DNA from: Daphnia pulex
Lineage: Eukaryota > Arthropoda > Branchiopoda > Diplostraca > Daphniidae
Reading direction: 5' to 3'
Assembly (NCBI RefSeq): GCF_021134715.1
Contig: NC_060026.1
Location: 11,709,001-11,773,000 of the forward strand
DNA: 64,000 nucleotides
In this document: piece after piece, positions 6,752 through 45,600 of the stretch
Layout of the letters: each line of letters starts with the position of its first letter
How positions within the stretch are numbered: position 1 is the stretch's first letter
Translations under genes and position numbers: made by a program
The notes under the pieces: generated by a model
Told to the model about the DNA's origin: nothing
Seen by the model: only the letters and a program-made list of their open reading frames with translations
The model's database searches: none

Positions 6752-8006
6752 CCCAGCTAAAAAAGAACTTCAGTTTAACTGTAGTTTAACTATAGTTTCC
6801 ATTACTAGAGTAATTTGGCCGCAAAACTATAGTTTTTTTAGTTAAATAACTGTAGTTTTTCTTTAAAAAAAATGCAGTTTTATTACTACCATTGATAAAA
6901 AACTTCGACAAAAAAAGATTCGACGTGGGCCAGGATCGAACCTTCAATTCTGGAGTTGGCAACTCATCTCGCTAACCACTAGACCAATTGACTTATTCAA
7001 TTGGTAGACATCTATGAAGTAGGTTATGATTTTTGTTTTCTATAACCTATGGACTTGGAAAGTTTTCTAGTCTTTGTTAGTTTAGAAAACAGGAGTAAGA
7101 AGGTAGCGGGCGTGTTTGTCGAAAACACTCACAAATACAATTATAGTACTTAGACTTAACATTATAGGTTAGACTACTTACGTTTTAAGAAATTGGTAAA
7201 ATTATAAGCAAGGGGAGATACATAAAAATATTTCAAGTTGGAAAATGTGATGTATGGCTAAGTGCAAATGAAAATTGATCTACTTGACTAAATAGGCCTA
7301 AAGTGGTTAATGGATATACTATAAACTATTAAATAGACTTTAAATAATTCTGTACCGCTGCTGCATATAGAGAAAAACTAAACTTGTCAAGTCAAGAAAC
7401 ATTAATCTCGTTAATTTTATGAAGATTATTGTCCCAGAATCATTTCGGGAACGGGTTTTTTTAATGAGTTAGTCATTTGTCCCAAATAATTGTAGATTTG
7501 AAATGGATTAAATGTGTTCCTGCTGTATAAAATTTAATAATTTTTTTTTCACTGTCAATTTTATAACTGCCAAGTCATATGTGTATGTGAACAATTCCTA
7601 TTAAATGTATTGTTCACGTACAATTTCATATTCGTTTAACTATTTTTATAAATCAAACAACTGTTTAAACTGCAGTATTACAGATATATAGTAATTAAAA
7701 CTGGAGTAAATTTTGCTGAACTGCAGTTTTTAAAATTTATACTACAGTAAACTAAACATAGTAATAAAAAACTAAAATACATTTTGCTGAACTGCAGTTT
7801 TTAAAATTTATACTACAGTTTAATAAAAAAAACTGCAGTTGTTTTAATTTTGGAAAAACAGACTTGGTAAAACTACAGTTTTACAAGGATAAACTACAGT
7901 AAAATAAATATAGTAATGGAAAACTAAAGTAAATGTAGAATAACTACATTTTTTTTGCAAAATACTGCAGTTTTCGGCAAAATACTGCAGTTCTTTTTCA
8001 GCTGGG
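6752..8006. mobile_element. 1.25-kb non-autonomous TIR element with palindromic subrepeats
   Basis: The left end cccagctaaaaaagaactt and the right end, read as reverse complement (cccagctgaaaaagaactg), match over about 22 of 25 bases, so the unit has terminal inverted repeats. Subterminal regions are packed with copies of the near-palindrome aactgcagtt / ctgtagttt on both sides (6770-6880 and 7660-7990). A tRNA-like segment is inside (6928-6990, minus). No transposase frame is present. A possible 2-bp duplication (cc) flanks it. Superfamily not assigned. Confidence 0.65.
6928..6990 (-). other. degenerate tRNA-like sequence (Gly-GCC-like)
   Basis: The minus strand has an A-box-like TGGTCTAGTGGTTAGCGAG (6986-6968), an anticodon-like hairpin with loop TTGCCAA, and a B-box-like GGTTCGATCC (6942-6933). 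Acceptor and T stems do not pair, so it is not a working tRNA gene. It is better read as the tRNA-derived head of a SINE-like sequence carried by the surrounding element. Confidence 0.5.
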
Positions 8007-10592: not shown

Positions 10593-11893
10593 TTAACCAT
10601 AAAGCCATCCAGGAAATCTATTTCTCTGTAGTGCGCTCTGAGATTCAACGTCACCAATGAATCTGGCTTGGCGATTTTTAATAATGGGGTAGCTTTCCGT
10701 GTACTGATTCTGCGATGAAACTATTAGTACGCAAACGGCAAAGAAGACAACAAGAATAAAGATGACCTGTAAGTGCCCTACTAACACAGCGATGTACAAT
10801 GGATATGACTGCAGCGTACTCCCAAGGATAAGGGAGATACAAACAGCATATCCATGGAATGCTTCATGTTGATCCTTATTTCCCCTTCCCCGCACGTACC
10901 ATTTGTATGTCCCTTGAATATACCGGTTTGTGTATACACAGGATCCTTAAATAACATCCATCTTTGGATAGGATTTCTGTTAGAAAAAAAAAGATAAAAG
11001 TCTCACCCCAGATTTGAACTACTGACCTTCAATTCCGTAGCTCAGCTCCCTGACCCCTTGGCCACCTATTCTTTCAAATGAGGGACAAAGGTTTGGGTGT
11101 AATGGAAATCGATATATTTTTTAGCTTTTTCGTTCACTGTGTACCTAAATGGTTATACTGTGATGCACATTCTGTGTATGTACCAAATGGTATCACAACA
11201 AAATCATACCCCCGGGTATATTACTTTGACGTACAATCAGTATATTAATGAATATACGCTGGTGGATCTACGATGAATATTCTTTATTTGATCCCATCCT
11301 AGATCCGTATAAATTTATACCTACGCTATACTACCGCCCCCCAATTGCGACCTGGATCTCTATTCATCCCATATTTACCTACATCTTACATTAAGTGGAT
11401 GGGCCGTGTTAGTAGGGTGATGATAAAATTATAAGTTATCGTTAACAATAACGCAACAATTATAAAATTTTGCTGAAAAATGTCATCATCGATCCACCAC
11501 TCAATAAGGCCTAAATCCCGGCACGAATTCCAGATCTAAATCTCAAAATAACCGTAAAAATATATTTTTTTAAAAATATCTCCTGTAGTCAACAGAAGCT
11601 CTTATCTCTTTGCTTTCTCTTGGCGAGTTGAAAAAATGTAATCTAGAATCTGATCATACTTTAAGCAAATTTTAACCATAAATGTCTCCTGAACGGGGGT
11701 GTGGGGATTTCTTTGTTCTGTAAACGCAGGCCAATCTGGCGTGCACTGGTGCACAGAAGAATTCTTGAAAACATATATTTTTTAAAAACCCCTTGAGATT
11801 AAGATCAGGAAAGACACCCCAGAATTTCAGCCCACTTGATGGTTAAACGATGGGTTTAAATGTAAAAGTTTTTGATAATCATACCTTGTTCAT
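10593..11893 (-). CDS. small secreted peptide precursor, copy 1
   Basis: Two coding exons: 11893-11885 (ATG AAC AAG, then GTATGA) and 10766-10593. Together they encode 60 residues. Residues 4-21 form a hydrophobic signal sequence (IFILVVFFAVCVLIVSS), so the product should be secreted. The remainder is QNQYTESYPIIKNRQAR, then FIGDVESQSALQ, then RNRFPGWLYG and stop. RQAR (35-38) is a furin-like RxxR site and RNR (51-53) a second basic site. A terminal Gly is the usual amide donor for peptide hormones, so an FPGWLY-amide or a longer amidated peptide could be released. A TATA box lies at 11993-11986. The 1118-nt intron contains a 642-bp transposon starting 9 nt from the acceptor. I do not recognise the family; hormone, antimicrobial or structural roles are all possible. 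Confidence 0.75.
10776..11417. mobile_element. 642-bp TIR element in intron of peptide gene copy 1
   Basis: It begins ccctactaacacagc and ends gccgtgttagtaggg: perfect 12-bp terminal inverted repeats (CCCTACTAACAC). The paralogous intron at 14302-14743 lacks it; there the sequence reads straight from aagtg into ttgatcaaattat, which marks the empty site. Only a 2-bp (tg) flanking duplication is visible. It has no coding capacity and contains a tRNA-like segment at about 11000-11075. Confidence 0.8.
11000..11075 (-). other. degenerate tRNA-like sequence (Leu/Ser-type A box)
   Basis: Minus strand: TGGCCAAGGGGTCAGGGAG (A-box and D-arm-like) followed by GAATTGAAGGT and AGTTCAAATCT (B-box-like), about 57 nt overall. 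Stems are poorly paired, so no functional tRNA is called. It shares GAATTGAAGGT with the tRNA-like segment at 6928-6990, which hints at a common SINE-like source. Confidence 0.45.
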
Positions 11894-11985
11894 GTTGAAA
11901 AGTTTTTGATTATTTCTTCTATATTATTGATCCGCCGTATTTTTGAAGCCAAGTGTCGTCTGATGAAAAGCGAAATGGTTTGTCC

Positions 11986-11993
11986 TTTATATA
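11986..11993 (-). promoter_or_regulatory. TATA box of peptide gene copy 1
   Basis: TATATAAA on the minus strand, about 93 nt before the ATG. The same box and the adjoining upstream block (caaagaacacctgtg on the plus strand) are conserved at copy 2. Confidence 0.65.
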
Positions 11994-12423
11994 CTCAGCT
12001 GTCAAAGAACACCTGTGCAAAACTTTCTCATTTTCAGCAATAGTTATACGATTTTTCTTAAGATCTGGAATTTCCCAGCTAGTTGAAGGACAATGGTATT
12101 CCCCAACAAATAAAGTCATCATATCTGTATCTCGTTTTGGCAATATTGTGACGTTGAGATTAAATTAGTCCTTGTATCAGATCAAGCCGTTAAAATTTAT
12201 TTATCCAGTTTTGTTTTATACTTATTTTAAAGAGTGACCCACTTATTTGGGTTTTCCCAAATTGCTGTATTAAAAACAGTAAGAACTACTTTCACGGTTT
12301 TTTCAAGTTAAACAATTGGCTCAAGGGGGAAATGGAAAGACGAAGGATTGTATATAATGCAAGACCTACTTGTTTCTTCCCCTTGTTTTTGTATTAAATT
12401 GATAGTTTTTGAAACCACGATTA

Positions 12424-13477
12424 GGGGAGACTGGAGTAAGCAGGGACGGTTTTCGTTTTCCCCCTTATCTCCCAAACTAATCATTTAATTTATTTAAAAT
12501 TTTGTTTTTATGTATTCCATACTGTAATGTACCCCCCATATTTTTTGTATAATTCAATAATAAACCATTTTCCCATGGAAGACCTTCAAAATTTTCTAAA
12601 ATTTTTGGAAGCAGCCTATTTTTAGGGGTAAGTGAGGACGCTGGGGTGGGTGGTGAGGAACGTTTTCGCCTTAAAATTCATTAAACATGTAAAAATTGAA
12701 ATTGCGTTCCGCTGCCCTGCTTGCCCTGCTCCTTTCGGCGAGCTCCGGAAGCTTTACCTTACTTGGCGGTAGGGGCGGTCCTGAAGGGGGAGAACAACTG
12801 GGAAATGCTTCCGGAGCTCGCCGAAAGGAGCAGAGCAGTCGAAAAGGAGATAGAGGGGGGAAAAGTCGACAGCTGGACTTTACACAGAGTGGCCCATCTC
12901 CTTATCTCTGAGAAATACCTTGAAAAAAAAGAAGAAATATGGGAAACTCTGTCATGATTTGATTTACTGACTGTCTGAAATCTACTTCTACGATGGACAA
13001 AATAATTAGCTATTGATAGCATGTAACTATCGATTACCAAAAAACTCCTCCCTTATTGCAGCTAAAGCCAACCCCCATAACACAAAAGGAAAATTTTGAA
13101 GAAAAAAAGTTTAAAACTATTTTTAGAATTGTAACATATTATTTTCAATAAATGTTACACATTACCCGACGCGAAATGTAATTCTTAATGAAATGACCAT
13201 AATAACTTTTAAAAAATTTAATTATTTTAGGATAAAAAAGAAATTTCTTGAGCTGTCCATAGTAACCCCGTGAGGTTTTAGTGTTCAACAAATAAAGGTC
13301 TTTATTTAGACGATTTGCAAGAAAATTGTGTATTGTGCAAAAACATATTTTAAAAATATCTTTAAATAGAGGACATGATAAGGTTTAAGATGAATACAAC
13401 AAGTTTAATGATATTTTATTTTTAAAACGAGAAAAAAATTCGTTAGTTTTTTGGTCCCATATAGCCCCGGTCTCCCC
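12424..13477. mobile_element. ~1.05-kb GGGGAGAC-type TIR element
   Basis: The left end is TA-ggggagactggag and the right end is ccggtctcccc-TA, giving inverted ends (ggggaga plus partial match) with a TA target duplication. Copy 2 of the duplicated peptide locus reads cacgattaaatccg at the corresponding place (about 15200), an apparently empty TA site. The interior holds a foldback repeat at 12727-12910 but no transposase. Confidence 0.6.
12721..12957 (+). repeat. foldback repeat with coding-like frame, copy 1
   Basis: Arms gctcctttcggcgagctc... (from about 12729) and ...gagctcgccgaaaggagc (to about 12831) are perfect inverted repeats of about 25 bp. One frame reads LAVGAVLKGENNWEMLPELA, AERSRAVEKEIEGGKVDSW and TLHRVAHLLISEKYLEKKEE to a stop at 12957. 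The same frame is kept in the copy at 17338, which suggests descent from a coding sequence, perhaps a retroelement gag-like protein. Confidence 0.55.
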
Positions 13478-13479
13478 TA

Positions 13480-14127
13480 CCATCTTTTTAAAAAGATAGG
13501 AAACACTTACGTATTGGTATTAGCATGGTGGAAGAGATGAATGGTGGAGCCACGGGATAGGGATCTGGCCTGTCAAACTGAAGCGTATGCTGAGGCAGAC
13601 CACTACGGCGCCACCGTCGTTTCTCCCGGTTTCAAGAGCTCTTATGGCACATTTACATGCAAAGGGATTTGAAATATTTATTTTTTAAAATTCTTAGACA
13701 GGTATGATGGTAAATGTACTTAACAAAAAGTAAGTTTATTTATAGTGCAGTATTTTAAAATTATCACAAAAAGATGTTCTCCAAGTCATAATGCAGAAAT
13801 TTAAGTTTGAAATGTCGACGTTCAAGGCAGTAATTGAAGGGATGCTGTTTACAATATTCAAAATAAAGGATGTCAATTTCATATCGTGTGAACGTGCGGA
13901 GTGTGTTATCAATTTATTGACATAAAACTTCACATCATTAGGATATCAGAAATGTTATATCTCATAATGCAATATAAAAAATATGTCAAATACGTATCAT
14001 GTATAAGATGTCTAAAAAAATCATGTCAGTTATGTGCCGAAAGCATGACATGGATGTGGAAATGGCATAAGAATATGAAAATGACATCAAAATTATATCA
14101 AATGCTACCTAGGGTCGTGCAAACAAA
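13480..14127. other. intergenic, SINE-like fragment only
   Basis: Around 13550-13625 the minus strand reads ggtggcgccgtagtggtctg... and ends ggctccacc, with pairing ends and a tRNA-like A box but no good B box. Otherwise AT-rich sequence with no supported gene. Confidence 0.4.
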
Positions 14128-14752
14128 TTAACCATAAAGCCATCCAGGAAATCTATTTCTCTGTAGCGCGCTCTGAGATTCAACGTCACGAATGAATCTA
14201 GCTTGGCGATATTTAATAACGGGGTAGCTTTCCGTGTACTGATGCTGCGATGAAACTATTAGGACGCATACGGCAACGAAGACAGCAAGAATAAAGATGA
14301 CCTGTAAGTGTTGATCAAATTATAATTTCTCGTTAACAATAACGCAACAACCACAAATCTTCTAAAAAAGGATGTAATCATCTATCCACCACTTAATAAG
14401 GCCTAAATCCCGGCACGAATTACAGATCTAAATCTGAAAATAAACTTAAAAATATTTTTTAAATGTCTCCTGCAGTCAACGGAAGCTCTTATCTTTTTCC
14501 TTTGTTTTGGCGAGTTACAAAAATTTAATGTAGAATCTGATCATATGGGAAAAAAACGATTTCTAAGAGAAGAACGAGGGGAGAGAATTTCGTTGTTCTG
14601 TAAACGCCGGCCAATCTGAGACGAATTATTGAAAACATATTTTTAAGCCCCATTGATATTAAGATCTGGAAAGGCACGCCAGAATTTTAGCCCACTTGAT
14701 GGTCAAACGATAGGTTTAAAAGTAAAAATTTTGATAATCATACCTTGTTCAT
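14128..14752 (-). CDS. small secreted peptide precursor, copy 2
   Basis: Tandem paralogue of the gene at 10593-11893, with the same structure: exon 1 14752-14744 (MNK) and exon 2 14301-14128, 60 residues. The compact 442-nt intron lacks the transposon seen in copy 1. Six residues differ (V9A, F12V, N23H, I31V, N34Y, G41R), all before residue 42; there are four synonymous changes. Residues 42-60 (DVESQSALQRNRFPGWLYG) are identical. The signal sequence, the RQAR site, the RNR site and the C-terminal Gly are all retained. A TATA box lies at 14841-14834. The duplication also covers some 450 bp upstream of the TATA box. The function is unknown; two conserved copies argue for an expressed gene rather than a relic. 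Confidence 0.75.
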
Positions 14753-14833
14753 GTTGAAAAGATTTTTATTATTTTCTTCTATATTATTGATTGAAGCCAA
14801 ATGCCGTCTGATGAAAATCAACATGGTATGCCC

Positions 14834-14841
14834 TTTATATA
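14834..14841 (-). promoter_or_regulatory. TATA box of peptide gene copy 2
   Basis: TATATAAA on the minus strand, 82 nt before the ATG, in the same context as in copy 1. Confidence 0.65.
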
Positions 14842-15210
14842 CTCCGCCGTCAAAGAACACCTGTGAAAAACTTTCTCGCTTTCAGCAATAGTTCAAAAAA
14901 ATAGTATAGTCGTCTTCTGTATCTCGTTTTGGCAAAATTGCGACGTAGAGATGAAATTCGTCTTGTTTCAGATCAAGGCATAAAAAATTCTTTTTCCAGC
15001 TTTCTTTCAAACTTCTTTTAAAGAGTGGCCCACTTATTTGGGTTTTCCCAAATTTCTTAACAGTAAGAACTACTTTCGTGGTTCTTTCAGGTTTAACAGT
15101 TGGCTCAAGGGAAAAATGGAAAGACGAAGGTTTGTAGAAAATGCAGGACCTATTACCTCTTTCTTCGCTCTGTTTTTTGTAATAAATTGTTAGTTTTTGA
15201 GACCACGATT

Positions 15211-20720: not shown

Positions 20721-21394
20721 TTAACTAGACCGAAAAAATGCCTCGTAGAAAGCGCGGAAGAAGGCCAGTTTAGCTTCGAGAACTTCGGGAGTGTCCTGAA
20801 CGAACTGCGCCGGCGCACCCCAGTTAACTTGGGGAAAGAAACTGGGTAGACCCAATATGAATCCGTTTGTAGCCGAAGCCACCGAGTTCGCCAGATTTTG
20901 ATTGGCGAGAAGAATAGGCTGCTGCTGAGACTGAGAAACAGCACTGGCGGTAGCAAAAGCGTGAGCAGCCGTATGGGCCTGGCGAGCAGCGGCTACTTCG
21001 GGAGTCTCTTGAACTTGTTGAGGAACTTTCCAGGTCCAGGGCACCGAGGAATACCGGGCAGGCAGTAGGTTGGCAATCACTCCGTTTGCGGCAGCTGCGG
21101 CATTGTACGCACGATAATGTTCAATTGTCGCGGCCTTTACTTCCGGTGTGTCCTCGACGTTACGTTTGGCTCGGGCGCTGACATGAGAAGTGCGAGCTTC
21201 GGCTAAATGTTTTGCAGTGTAGGGATAAGAAAGCAAGGGGCTGTAGTTCCAACCGGTCGGATACTGAGCAGAGACAGTACAGACTGCTATCAAGATAAAA
21301 CATATGACAGAAGCCACCTTCGGAGAAATTGCATATAATTAATAGAAGCAATAAGATAAAGAAAACCAAAAAAATTAGTTACTGAGTTATTCAT
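20721..21394 (-). CDS. cuticle protein with DTPEV-type repeats
   Basis: A structural exoskeleton protein of 202 residues. A 12-nt first coding exon (21394-21383, MNNS, then GTAACT) joins exon 2 (21317-20721) in phase 0, which begins VASVICFILIAVCTVSA and so completes a signal peptide cut before QYPTGW. The mature part has three repeats of the D/E-TPEV-xAA motif: EDTPEVKAATIEHYRAYNAA, QETPEVAAARQAHTAAHAFA and QDTPEVLEAKLAFFRAFYEA. Between them lie aromatic/Pro stretches (SVPWTWKVP, FFPQVNW). TPEV repeats of this kind are known from crustacean cuticle proteins. The tiny first exon is inferred because no ATG precedes the signal segment in exon 2. The TATA box is at 21480-21474. It sits between astacins A and B on the same strand. 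Confidence 0.8.
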
Positions 21395-35000: not shown

Positions 35001-37919
35001 AAAAAGAAAACTAAATTTTTTTGTTTTACATTTCTGAAAACTTTTTTTTCGTGTGTGATGGGTGTCACCTGGGAAAAAAAAAGCCCTGCGACAAAAGAAG
35101 TGTCGGCCCTGGTCACGTACCTACGAGGTACCGGGAGTCATAAAAAGAAAATACGTTTAAAGCTTTCACGTGACCGTATCTCTGAACCCAAAGCTGCTGG
35201 GCTGATGACATTCTTCTTCTTCTTCTTCTTATTTCATCGTTCCATTTGACTTTTTGGTTAATTCGTCGTTTGTTTTTCTTTTTTTTTTGCCTTCTCTCCC
35301 AGGTCGGTGATGGCTTTGAGCGCTGACCTGATATGCGGCAAGATACCGGGATTGACGTACAAGCAGCGGCTGCTCTGCGCCGCCAAGCCCGACGCCATGG
35401 TGGCCATCAGCAACGGAGCCAAACTGGGACTAGCCGAGTGTCAGGAGCAATTCAAGTACCACCGATGGAATTGCACGGCCATCGGCAGCCGAAACGGATT
35501 CGGTCACGTCGTCGTTGTCGGTAAAATAAGAAAAACTAACAGAAAAACGTTTTTAACCAAATTTCTTCTCATTTCGTCGACTCAGACTTCCCCTTTAAAT
35601 TTCTCATTTGGTGTAAAAACAAACCGCCGAACGCGGTGCCCAGCAGAGAGAAAAGACAAAACGACAAAACATTTCTAACCGAAAAATCCCGGGCGTTCAA
35701 TTATAATTTAAAGACGGGCGGGCGGGCGGTAGAAGGACATAGTAGTCTGCGGCTTCTTTTTGGGGTTATGTTAAGTAAATGAGGACAATCTAAAGGAGGG
35801 AAGAAGAAATCGAAACGTCTGGGCAGCCTCCTACTATAGCTGTGGTCACCGCTGAAATGTAATTCAAATGTTTTGTGTCTCTCCCGGTGTATTACGCTCG
35901 AGTGACAAACACGGTAAGTATAAACCGCAGCTCGGCTCGGGTTCATACAGTCGAGAGAAATAGAAAGAAAAAATAAATACAAGTTTGGTCATGGCAACTG
36001 AGAGCTCGGTACTATTATATAGCGTATGTCTACACCGCGCCCAATCTAACTGGGCGGGTGGCCCGTCGTGAAAAAACATTTTCGTCGCTGAAAAAGAAAC
36101 GGTCGCCGAGAATTTTCTACCGGATGAAAAAGAATTTGAATAAACCAACCGAAAATGTTTGCGCAATTTAAAAATGCCTATCAACAAACAGACGAAATTG
36201 CAATGAATTATATCGTCTCCCATATTTGTCAAGCCCAAAAGGGGAATTTTGTTTTATTTCGGCATAGAAAATAAAAATTTTCTCTTCTATTCAAATATCT
36301 AACATAACATAATAACATACCCGGCGAAGAAAGTCTGGCTAGTCCCGGTGCCCGTCCTCGATTGAAACGACGCTGGGCGACGCTCAGCGGGGAGACGCAG
36401 AGGAACATACATATCTATAAGTTGCGAATTCGCCTTTTGAATCAGATAGGGTCGTCCAATGAAATACCCAAGAGTAAATAATCTAGACGCAGCACACAAT
36501 ACCGCCGCTTTCGCCTTTTTTGGGCCGTCTTCTAAGAAGAAATAAAATATCTCTCTCTCAGCTCTTACTCTGTGTGCTGTGCAGTATCTAAATTGTATAA
36601 AATAAAAGCCACAACTTTATATTTTCCTTTGCGCCAGCCAATGGCAATTTTCCAATGTAAAAAAACAAAAAATCGTTTGGTGGATTCTCCTTTTTGATCT
36701 GATTATCATTACCAACACCGTCGTGGATCCTTTTTGTTTCTTTTTCTTACAGGAAGCCGAGAAGCGGCTTATCTGTATGCAGTGTGGAGCTCCGGCCTGA
36801 CGTACGCTATCGCCCAGGCGTGCAGCCAAGGAGCTATCAGCTCTTGCGGTTGCGATCCGACCAAACGGGGCGGCAAGGACCTGGTCAGATCCATGCGCAG
36901 GTCCCATCGGGCGCGCAACGCCGCCAACGGAGCTAATACCAACGCAGGTAATGGAGGAGGTCCTGTGGCTGCCGGCGGAAACGGATGGAAATGGGGCGGC
37001 TGTTCGGCCGACGTCCGATCGGGAGCCTCGCTGGCCAAACGATTCGCCGACTCGAGAGAAACCGAAGGAGACGATAGGAGCTTGATGAATCTGCACAATA
37101 ATAAAGCCGGTAGAAAAGTGAGTCTTAAAATATCTTATCACTTCTTTATTCAGACTGTTTCCTGGAAATGATTATAATATATACCTTCTTTTCTTTTTTG
37201 TTCCTTTATCATTTGTGTGTATCTAGATTGTCAAATCGATGTTGAAGAAGGAATGCAAATGCCACGGAGTCAGCGGCAGTTGCTCACTCAAAACCTGTTG
37301 GGAGAAATTGCCGGCCTTCAGGGACATTGGCGATGCCCTGATGAAGCAGTAAATCATCGTTTTTGAATAGTTTTGTTAAACACATTATGATATGCCCATC
37401 AGCGCTGACTCGTTTTGATGTTGAATGTGTGGTGACAGGTACCGTGAAGCCAAGGCCGTCGTCGCCAAAGAGAGTCGCAGCGGCAACGACAGCAAGCCAC
37501 GCAAACTGTTGACGCTGCAGTTGCGTAGGAAGCCGCACAACAAGCCCCGTCTCTCGGAGCTGGTGTTTCTCAACTCTTCGCCAAACTACTGCGAGGCGAA
37601 CCCGTCGACGGGGTCGCTGGGTGTCGTCGGCAGGAGGTGTAATCGAACCTCAACAGGTAACTGGCAAATCAACATCAATAAAAGGAGATTTAGGAGTTGC
37701 TGTACATGGTCTGGAGAACAAGTAGTGGTGGCTTACAAACCTTGTTCTCTCTATTCTGTAATAGGTGCTGATGGCTGCAACCTGCTCTGCTGTGGACGGG
37801 GGTACAACACCCACCAGTTCAACCACGTCTCCCATCAGTGCAACTGCAAATTCCACTGGTGCTGCGAAGTCAAGTGCCAGACTTGCACCATCAAGAGCGA
37901 AGAGTACACCTGCAAATAA
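32076..37919 (+). CDS. Wnt7: Wnt7-type secreted signalling protein
   Basis: A lipid-modified ligand of Frizzled receptors. Six exons join in phase: 32076-32179, 35303-35520, 36753-37117, 37227-37348, 37439-37656, 37765-37919; 393 residues. The signal peptide ([13 protein letters not shown] core) lies in exon 1. Wnt landmarks are [16 protein letters not shown] (45-60), the glycosylation site RWNCT (89-93), [20 protein letters not shown] (186-), [24 protein letters not shown] with the palmitoylated Ser at 245, and the Cys-rich end [14 protein letters not shown]...EEYTCK. The SADVR block, SREAAY and [10 protein letters not shown] point to Wnt7. A Gly/Asn/Arg-rich linker (residues 142-185) is some 30 residues longer than usual in Wnt7. 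Intron 1 is 3.1 kb; intron 5 is 108 nt and open. It converges on Wnt5, whose stop lies 1.7 kb away. Confidence 0.92.
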
Positions 37920-42600: not shown

Positions 42601-45600
42601 ACCGAAAACCGTCATCCTCTTCACAAAAAGTTATATAAGAAGAGAGAAAAATAAAATTCTAAAAAAGGTCTGATTGTTTCCGATTCGGCGAGTAGATGTA
42701 GTCTGTCTGTCTGTCTGTGTGCTGGAAACTCATTCCTCCTCCTACCCGTTCCATTTCTATGCTAATGACCCACTCGACAATCGGAGAGAAACAGCAGCAG
42801 CAGCAGCTCTCCGATTCTCTCTCGTGATATCTTTTTGATATCATCCCGACTATATAGTCTAAATATAGAAAGAGGAGAGAAAAAAGATCTAGACAATCAT
42901 TTGATGTACAGACACGAGTATCGGGTCATCATCAGTTTGGCTTTTGATCGATGGAGCGCGCTGCCAGCCAGCCAGCCAGCGTGCGCTGGGGGTGATGAAT
43001 AGATGACGATATATAATATGTTATATGCGCTGCACGATATCGCAATGCCGGAAAAATCGACGGGGGCATATACTATACTGTATAGTGTATATACTATATA
43101 CGGAAATATCTATTCATTGGCCCTTTTTTTTTATTATTATTATTTTCACCCGATCCCCCCCCATTGATACGTTCAGTGGCTCTGCCAGATGACGTCCCTT
43201 ATCCCCCCAAACTCCTGACTGATGTCTTTCAAAAGAAAAAAAAAAGGCAATTTTGAGCGACCATATGCTCTTGTGTAACACACGGCATCTGTTACGAAAT
43301 CCAAAAAAATTTGCCTGGCCGTCCGTACCAATTTGTAAGACGGGTCCAAAGACGGTGGAATCTTCGACGGTGGAACAATTCCACCTCCTGTAGCGGAACT
43401 GCCACTGGCACTCGGCGATGCCGGCCCTGGCCCCGCGACCCACCGAGCTCATGTGATCCTGGTAGAGTTGGCACAATTTGGCCTGGCCAGGCGACAGCCC
43501 AGGGATTTGCGTGCACAGCGGCTGGGCTCCCACCATGTAGAGCTGAGGATTCCGCCACACCTCGTAGCCCTGGACGCCGAGATTCCTGACAGGGGAAAAA
43601 AATAGAAAATAGAAAAGAGAAAAAGACGTTTTATTTTTAACAACTTTTTCGGGAAGAAGTTAGTGAGCGAGAGGTGAAAAGAGCCAGTCGAGTCGACGAG
43701 AAACACGTCGCAAAAGAGGTCATCGTTAACATTTCAGAAAGAAAAAGAAGAAAAAAAGGGGAAACAACATTCTTATATAGTAGCTGATGGCCATGGCCGC
43801 GTCTGGCAGTGTGTCTAGCTGTTGTTGTTGTTACAAGAAGAAGTGGAGGAATGAATCAAAGAGTGTATATATATATGTGTGCTGGGGAGAGCAAACTTTT
43901 TCAGCAGCAGAAAAGAATATAAACAAGAGTCACACACACAGCACACACAAGCAGTTGCACATAAATCTCCGTGCAACTGCGGACGAGGGGGGAAAAATAA
44001 ATTCTGGGCAAGAAAATAATAAAAATAAATAATATTCGAAATTAAAGTTGATGTGGAATTTTTTGGTGAATGCTGACGTCATTATAAGTTAGATTCTATT
44101 TTTTGGGAGTATATAAGGAACTTTGTCTCTTTTTTTTTCCCAGAAAAAACAATGGAGACTGATGTTGTTTTATTTTGTTTGTTTTTTTTGTGTACATTTC
44201 GCTGATTTCAATCAGGTTATTTCTCTGCTGGCTTATCTCTGTTGGACCATCTCTCTTTCCCAATGTTTTTGTCTTTGCGTCTCTCTGATACACAAATAGC
44301 TATACATACGAACAATCAATAACAGCCAAACAAAATGTCCTTCTCGATTTTCTTTTCTTTTTTGTGCGACTCCGATGGAATTTTCGATTTGTTTTTTTGT
44401 TTTGAAAAAGGAAATTTTTCTGTGGTTTTGTAAGTTTTTAACTTTTACAAATAAAGCTATTACACGTTGACAAAAGAGAGAGAAAGAAAGGTGTGTGTGT
44501 TTTTTTATTCACTTTTATAACATCTCAGTCCCGCGGAATTACTGCTACACAACACACATACACACAAGGTGAGAGATCCTTGGACATTTTTCTTTATTAT
44601 ATGGAGAGAGAGAGACCGAAGACAAGCGCTCAGACTCTCTCTCTTTCTTTCTTTCTCTCTATAGGGTGATGGTGGTTGGGAAGCAGTTAAGTCGTAAAAT
44701 ATAAATAAATTTCTTCTTCTTCTTCTTATTTTTTGAAATAAGAAAAAGCTGTGCCTTCTCACCATATCCGGATGACTCCTATATACTCGGGAACCCCGAA
44801 GGTGCCGAGTCAAAAAATACAGAAATTTTGAATGAAAAATTTTGTGTTTTTTTTTTCTTTTGTGTGCGTGCTAGAGATGCAACAGCAGCAGCAGCAGAAG
44901 CTTCTGCTCTTTTGTCTCATTTTTGTTACTTTTGTGTGGTGGTGTCTGTTTTTGTATATTTCACTGCCATAGGGAGGGAAGAAGAAGAAGAGAAAGAACA
45001 GATAACACCAACTGGGAAAATGTTGAATATCATGGTCGAGTCATTTGTCTGATGTTTCTCCGTTTCTTTTGAGGGCCTCTTGGAGAGAGGCCTCCAGCAG
45101 GAGGAATCCCAGAGTTCAATTGGAATAATAAGACAACTGGGAATAGCGCATCTATACATGTATATGTATATACCATGTGTGTGTGTGTGTGTCTATAGCA
45201 ATTGTAAAAAAAAAAGGGTCAACTCAGTTCGTTCTTTTAAAAATAAAAAGCTATCGTCATTTTCACCTGATAGGGCTATACAAAAAAATTTTCTTATTTC
45301 TTTTTTTTTACAATTAAACTTGTTTTTTTTTTTAACTCATTTTACCCTTCACGTATTCATTCCCTCCCCGCTGTTTTTTTTCGCACTCGAGCGGGCGGCA
45401 GCGGCGGCGGCCGACAGTCAGCCGCCGCACCTTTTCTCATCTACCGCCGACACGAAAATTTGAAAAACCCGGCGGGGCCGCTCGCCACCGCGCCACCATC
45501 ACCGCACCACCGGCCGCCGCCACGCCATCTCATCTCTCAAACAAAAATTAAAAAATCAAAAGAAGAAAGAAAAGGAAAAAAATCAAATTTGATCAGAAAA

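Follow-up and report, generated by a model that had tools for sequence, protein, structure and literature searches.

We analysed a stretch of 64,000 nucleotides of the Daphnia pulex genome (NCBI RefSeq assembly GCF_021134715.1, contig NC_060026.1, positions 11,709,001 to 11,773,000; hereafter the window, with positions counted from its first letter), which contains two tandem genes, A and B. Both genes lie on the minus strand in the same orientation, and each encodes a 60-residue secreted-type precursor that ends RNRFPGWLYG-stop. The original prediction for this locus, a tandem pair with a three-codon first exon, a single acceptor, a TATA box in both copies and 60-residue products with this end, was confirmed when the minus strand was read and translated. 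The splice junctions are predictions, based on the GT-AG borders and on five paralogues that have the same layout. The features of the two genes are as follows.

14833..14841, minus strand: gene A TATA box TATATAAAG, from the sequence
14744..14752, minus strand: gene A exon 1 (ATG AAC AAG), followed by GT at 14743, from the sequence
14302..14743, minus strand: gene A intron, 442 bases, phase 0, GT-AG, splice predicted as above
14128..14301, minus strand: gene A exon 2, 57 codons and stop, ending RNRFPGWLYG-stop, by translation
11985..11993, minus strand: gene B TATA box TATATAAAG, from the sequence
11885..11893, minus strand: gene B exon 1 (ATG AAC AAG), from the sequence
10767..11884, minus strand: gene B intron, 1118 bases, phase 0, from the sequence
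10593..10766, minus strand: gene B exon 2, 57 codons and stop, ending RNRFPGWLYG-stop, by translation

The TATA box lies 89 bases (A) and 100 bases (B) upstream of the ATG. As had also been predicted, the two proteins differ at six residues (9, 12, 23, 31, 34 and 41), all before residue 42, and agree throughout their final 19 residues, where the genes have a single synonymous change, at residue 48. Identity between the genes is 94% (164/174) in exon 2 and 82.5% (358/434) in the comparable part of the intron; it is 72% (170/235 aligned) in the 250 bases before the ATG and 60% (33/55 aligned) in the first 60 bases after the stop. Since exon 2 is more alike than its flanks, the coding part has been held back relative to them.

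Relatives of A and B were sought in the whole genome (133.19 Mb in 13 contigs, including the window), and the expectation values (E) given for homology are one-genome values. A protein search with A (E up to 10) found A, B and a single gene on contig C2, gene C (71% identity to A, E 6e-22). Gene C has an exon 1 reading MIK, an intron of 120 bases and an exon 2 reading GMLILFVFVAVCVLLVSAQHEYTENYPIINYRITRFSRDVESQMMAKRNRFPGWLFG-stop, with the C-terminus RNRFPGWLFG-stop. Three further genes, F1-F3, lie on contig C10 at 12.93-12.96 Mb, about 1.2 Mb from A and B; they end SRFSRWLFG-stop and have the same layout as A, B and C, with first exons MSNK, MNPK and MNPNK and introns of 99, 76 and 91 bases, respectively. 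In each of the six genes, a first exon of three to five codons is followed by a phase-0 intron that comes after Lys, and the precursor has a hydrophobic leader, an RxxR site and, at the C-terminus, RFxxWL[FY]G-stop. With C as the query, the three F genes were found at E 7e-4, 1e-3 and 0.02, and with F2 as the query C was found at E 1e-3; judged from these sequences, gene C is the link between A/B and the F genes. By the same evidence, A and B are part of a family, not named before, that comprises at least six small secreted-type peptide genes, rather than an isolated pair, and the further genes rule out the view of A and B as a two-copy curiosity.

Pattern searches of the genome, each paired with a reversed control pattern, agree with this. 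The pattern FPGWL[YF]G-stop has four exact matches in 133 Mb, namely A, B, C and a gene on contig C4 (hereafter the C4 gene), and none in the reversed control. A looser pattern that allows up to two mismatches occurs at 13 places, three of which are F1-F3, against three in its control. RFxxWL[YF]G-stop occurs exactly at eight places genome-wide, of which seven are A, B, C, F1-F3 and the C4 gene, and the eighth has Ser for Arg. The resemblance between A and B is thus more than chance, given the excess identity of exon 2 over the intron, the third copy with the same layout and the four matches against none in the control. When one mismatch is allowed, the matches total 44, and those of the reversed control 29; because this excess is small, further members with changed ends are neither claimed nor excluded.

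Among the 36 one-mismatch matches, four candidates were read, KFLRWFFG-stop (C2), RFRFWLYGR and RFRYWLFGK (C6) and RFDGWLYGR (C1), and all were rejected as chance or unproven, their open frames having no leader. A place at C2:7925741 was also set aside, as it has three mismatches and an in-frame stop, and the reversed control also gave one such place. DNA matches on C5, on C8 and on C10 near 6.8 Mb are to the intron sequence of A only. A motif query of 20 residues gave no match. In the viral contigs, 186 pattern matches included no relatives; the prokaryote contigs gave 45 pattern matches, of which one was called a relative, a Kitasatospora stretch with 52% identity over query residues 35-57 (E 3e-5, among candidates only), which we judged to be chance. 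None of the seven genes matches a Pfam family at its cut-off, NVEALA (E 0.15-0.24) and UL78 (E 0.26) being far below theirs. The PDB contained no match to query A1, and two matches to query A2 with E 0.32 and 0.5.

When the six exon-2 proteins are aligned, the invariant columns include R32 and R35 (the RxxR site), E41, R50, F51, W54, L55 and G57, followed by the stop. The hydrophobic leader, read by eye, covers about 20 residues and ends before a conserved Gln. An extended site, RxxRxxR, is present in 5/6 genes, the third Arg having been lost in B. A dibasic Lys-Arg stands directly before the C-terminal peptide only in gene C (1/6), where it precedes NRFPGWLFG; the residue that precedes the motif is a single Arg in A and B, and Ser in F1-F3. 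All seven genes, which occupy four loci on three contigs, have the C-terminal Gly-stop, and no paralogue found continues beyond the Gly, so that on the point of a possible C-terminal extension in homologues the original prediction stands, with the C-terminus kept in seven genes of the same genome. The layout of leader, RxxR and C-terminal Gly is well supported at the sequence level. Cleavage at RxxR(xxR) would give C-terminal peptides of 16-21 residues, and the predicted amidated products are DVESQSALQRNRFPGWLY-amide, FIGDVESQSALQRNRFPGWLY-amide, AAEPAMIGSRFSRWLF-amide and NRFPGWLY-amide. The genome also has matches to PF03712, a copper monooxygenase domain that covers both peptidylglycine and dopamine-type enzymes, two kinds not told apart here; together with the Gly-stop, these matches make an amidated product plausible.

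Constraint on the precursor was estimated by the ratio of nonsynonymous to synonymous rates (dN/dS, Nei-Gojobori), which is noisy for so few codons. Over the whole of exon 2, A/B has a ratio of 0.42, comparisons of C with A or B give 0.53-0.58, those of A or B with the F genes 0.30-0.39 (with dS above 1), and F2/F3 has 0.10; for the last nine codons of A/C the ratio is 0.25. Taken by segment, the ratios, including the higher values given below, indicate that constraint is strict at the very end and at RxxR but does not extend over the entire mature segment, so that it is not uniform.

The promoters, defined as the 500 bases before the ATG, share a further element. A, B and C have in common an exact 23-base stretch, TTGGGAAAACCCAAATAAGTGGG, which in gene A includes a Rel/Dorsal-type decamer. 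The motif matches in the window are as follows.

15040..15049, minus strand: gene A Rel/Dorsal-type decamer GGGAAAACCC, within the exact 23-base stretch common to B and C
12249..12258, minus strand: gene B Rel/Dorsal-type decamer GGGAAAACCC
12094..12103, minus strand: gene B second GGGWWWWCCM match GGGAATACCA
12066..12076, minus strand: gene B GGGWDWWWCCM match GGGAAATTCCA

The pattern GGGWWWWCCM is given as a Dorsal consensus in PMC3009591. F1 and F2 keep GGGAAAACCC, F3 has GGGAAATCCC, and all of these fit the consensus, which is present in 6/6 promoters of the A/B/C/F genes; among 1000 dinucleotide shuffles of each promoter, 0.9-2.1% carry one. Outside the two promoters, the window (63,000 bases) contains no such site, nor do three stretches of C4 (29.7 kb), and the C2 stretch L012 contains two, both in the promoter of gene C. 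A C7 stretch with two sites was left out of this background because it had been fetched for holding the word; with C7 included, there are 14 sites in 161.6 kb. That stretch came from an exact copy of the 23-mer (C7:5066460; L033, L037), which is part of 63 bases that match the C2 promoter and was discarded, no coding sequence having been found nearby. The longest exact word common to A, B, C and F1 is TGGGAAAACCCAA, a length reached by 0/200 shuffles of F1; pairwise with A, B or C, F1 has an exact word of at most 13 bases in common and F2 one of 11 bases (with C). A reading of TGGGAA as a CSL/Su(H) site was rejected, since the consensus fits ATGGGAA of F1 and not TTGGGAA of A. From the sites above we infer Rel/Dorsal-type regulation of the A/B/C/F genes.

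We tentatively favour the reading that these genes encode a lineage-specific, NF-kB-controlled, furin-processed and amidated host-defence peptide, which would work like Daisho or the Bomanins of Drosophila without being filed as a member of either group; the statement as a whole falls somewhat short of an even chance. Its precursor-and-processing part is very probable, and the immune role is the weaker step. In this scheme, the gene would be transcribed from the TATA promoter with its upstream Rel/Dorsal-type site, and the product exported by means of the hydrophobic leader that appears to end before the conserved Gln. A furin-like convertase would then cut at the conserved RxxR to free a C-terminal peptide of 16-21 residues, removal of the C-terminal Gly would leave W-L-Tyr-amide or W-L-Phe-amide, and the released peptide would most likely act as an infection-inducible host-defence peptide under NF-kB control, much as Daisho or the short Bomanins do. 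The likeness to immune effectors lies in the promoter site, the tandem duplication and the furin-type site, which resemble those of short Toll-controlled effectors of flies.

Three fly systems were compared by their published descriptions. The Daisho peptides (Dso1/IM4 and Dso2/IM14) are described in PMC6989431 as short, secreted and Toll-induced products of adjacent genes restricted to Drosophila, mature Dso1 being amidated; the present genes are similar in their short secreted-type precursors, adjacent duplicates, presumed lineage restriction and predicted amidation, but no sequence relation was seen in the Pfam search (no match at cut-off), and the daisho genes are divergently transcribed whereas A and B run in the same direction. 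The Bomanins are presented in PMC12894722 as Toll effectors that form a multigene family; they are very short and share a conserved core of 16 residues, to which some add tails, whereas the core here is the C-terminal RFxxWL[FY]-Gly. Baramicin precursors, according to the account in PMC8423362, are processed at furin sites, and putative Dif/Dorsal sites lie upstream of the gene; as in Baramicin A, the A/B family combines a secreted-type precursor, a furin-type site and an upstream Dorsal-type site, but Baramicin A is a polyprotein that gives several peptides by way of RXRR, whereas each precursor here has one candidate peptide and RxxR.

A table in PMC2685406 lists Dorsal, Relish, Cactus, MyD88 and Pelle in its first column, which we assign to D. 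pulex, since the PGRP count of 0 given there is in line with the text. For the same species, the surveys of PMC2685406 and PMC5437397 report no recoverable antimicrobial peptides and no anti-lipopolysaccharide factors (ALFs) or crustins, and in the search for domains of all main Drosophila antimicrobial peptides described in PMC4833078, Defensin2-bearing proteins are reported for Ixodes and Mesobuthus only. A family of short, processed peptides that have a Rel-type promoter site in common would offer a specific candidate for the effectors missing from D. pulex, a host-parasite model.

Several observations weigh against this reading. As A, B and C are related, their promoter sites are not independent; the Rel consensus was looked up after the conserved word had been noticed, so that the choice of factor is post hoc; and more than 10,000 sites of the Dorsal consensus are predicted in the fly genome, as PMC3009591 also states. 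The 50-kb F region holds seven GGGWWWWCCM sites, three in the promoters and four elsewhere, and the consensus is absent from the promoter of the C4 gene (0/1), although this gene shares the C-terminal ten residues. Pairwise words as long as those observed were reached by shuffles in 2/200 cases for A-F1, 3/200 for B-F1, 5/200 for C-F1 and 38/200 for C-F2, and the exact word common to all six promoters, which is limited to seven bases because F3 reads GGGAAATCCC, is unremarkable (22/200 shuffles). At the protein level, the F genes were missed by the A query even with E up to 10, and A and B were missed by the F2 query. With a net side-chain charge of 0 to +2, the mature peptides as predicted are weakly cationic, and they have no cysteine. 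The dN/dS of F1 is 0.97 against F2 and 0.87 against F3; without the leader, A/C has a ratio of 1.0 and B/C one of 0.77, and in the last 20 codons the ratios are 1.08 and 0.93, respectively, these last two because residues 47-50 differ. Finally, identity at the C-terminus would also be expected of a receptor ligand.

This last point leads to the alternative that survives best, a peptide hormone or neuropeptide in which the W-L-Tyr/Phe-amide end is a receptor ligand, released either as NRFPGWLY-amide after Arg or as the longer furin product. We consider it rather unlikely, but the weak charge, the absence of cysteine and the strict C-terminus keep it alive. Arthropod amidated neuropeptides as a class have a leader, basic processing sites and a C-terminal Gly. 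The genes found here resemble them in these features, the leader being read by eye, with the Gly-stop kept in 7/7 genes and PF03712 domains in the genome, and gene C has Lys-Arg directly before NRFPGWLFG; they differ in that the dibasic flank is confined to this one gene of six. RF..WL[FY]G has also been kept across A/B/C and F despite a synonymous distance above 1 in exon 2, and the last ten residues recur on the different precursor of the C4 gene, as would be expected of a ligand if nothing but its end were important. Against a hormone stand the tandem duplication, the Rel-type site in 6/6 promoters and the lack of any Pfam family at its cut-off for the seven genes. In addition, FPGWLY, PGWLY, PGWLF, FPGWLF, RFSRWLF, SRWLFG, NRFPGW and WLY-amide or WLF-amide names were not found in the open papers searched; phrases on Daphnia antimicrobial peptides gave 0 papers in the same search. 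Of the original proposal of an amidated neuropeptide or hormone layout, the secreted-type precursor with its Gly-stop is supported, and the label is not: given the conserved furin-type RxxR, the tandem copies and the Rel-type site in all six promoters, a host-defence peptide fits at least as well. If the product is a hormone instead, it would belong to a class of peptides that is new and whose ligand can be tested.

The C4 gene requires separate consideration. Its frame reads ...TLLVLVALAACVFAMDAEVQDQEAAEQSYRNPTGPPMTPIHGVYGPPSYQYGVNAGGDINRNRFPGWLYG-stop, so that a different precursor has the same last ten residues as A and B (RNRFPGWLYG-stop). The gene sits in a cluster of Tyr/Gly/Pro-rich secreted-type proteins, of which six further ones seen have KA, YAY, SCG or VL as their ends, and some contain RAFPGY. 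A blastn comparison of the A/B and C regions with the C4 stretches gave no match, and in tblastn against C4 the alignment was limited to the last 18 residues, with 11 identities. The last 33 bases of A and of the C4 gene show seven differences, of which six are silent and one is a change between stop codons. The leader, pro-region and promoter of the C4 gene differ from those of A/B/C/F, whereas the C-terminal end is alike. Either an ancient transfer, with selection keeping the end since then, or convergence would account for this; both point to the C-terminal ten residues as the unit that functions. A bolder possibility, which we regard as improbable, is that RNRFPGWLY-amide is one bioactive unit made from two precursor families, the NF-kB-controlled A/B/C/F genes and the C4 gene without a Rel site. 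If so, an animal reported to be without recognisable antimicrobial peptides would have an amidated effector or cytokine-like ligand of its own, inducible from one source and constitutive from the other.

The surroundings of the C4 gene also bear on another alternative, that the family encodes a secreted product of the gut, cuticle or reproductive tract whose C-terminal motif is structural or enzyme-binding, and is neither a signal nor antimicrobial. The Tyr/Gly/Pro-rich cluster speaks for it, as does the leader segment of this cluster, which also precedes aminopeptidase-like proteins. Such a role is nevertheless doubtful, since the similarity between the C4 gene and the other genes is confined to the 18 aligned residues, the C4 promoter is without the shared site, and RxxR is kept in the A/B/C/F genes.

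As a separate observation, the leader of the C4 cluster together with the segment xxQDxEAAEQxYxIHGVY begins aminopeptidase-like proteins at about 1501 of L028 (C4) and at 1459-1986 of L031 (C3), the latter with a Peptidase_M1_N match (E 2.7e-5) just under the Pfam cut-off. This distribution suggests that the leader segment of the cluster has been shuffled.

That A, B and their relatives are not real genes, and are chance open frames or decayed copies, is very improbable: the gene models are drawn from sequence and a transposon-like insertion adjoins the acceptor of gene B, but seven genes at four loci have a recurring layout and frames without internal stops, and all but one of the eight exact RFxxWL[YF]G-stop places, the exception having Ser for Arg, are these genes. 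The insertion is described as follows.

10776..11417, strand not assigned: transposon-like insertion in the gene B intron, 642 bases, with 15-base terminal inverted repeats (93% complementary) and CCCTACTAACAC ends

It is absent from the intron of A. Between the insertion and exon 2 of gene B only nine intron bases are left, which end in the acceptor AG, and the insertion may affect the splicing of gene B.

Other open frames lie near the F genes and in the window. A C1q-domain frame (E 6.9e-17) is located at 6933-7424 (plus strand) of L063, about 2.3 kb before exon 2 of F2, and the sequence that starts with the last 60 bases of this frame is repeated before F3, at 92.7% over 851 aligned bases. 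Around 12.938-12.967 Mb of C10 (L062-L065), several open frames of the form IACGxGP...GG..A.PNSWPF are serine-protease-like by eye; the one that was scanned had no Pfam match, and one such frame has a GGGAATTCCC site some 350 bases upstream. In the window, a 205-residue open frame at 20724-21338 (minus strand) with a leader-like start and PEV-A-A repeats is cuticle-protein-like by eye, with no Pfam match at E 0.01. Wnt-family exons are found at 35262-35675 (plus strand), 37425-37916 (plus strand) and 43117-43659 (minus strand), with Pfam wnt E values of 7.5e-15, 6.7e-31 and 1e-17, respectively; since they lie on both strands, the window contains at least two Wnt genes.

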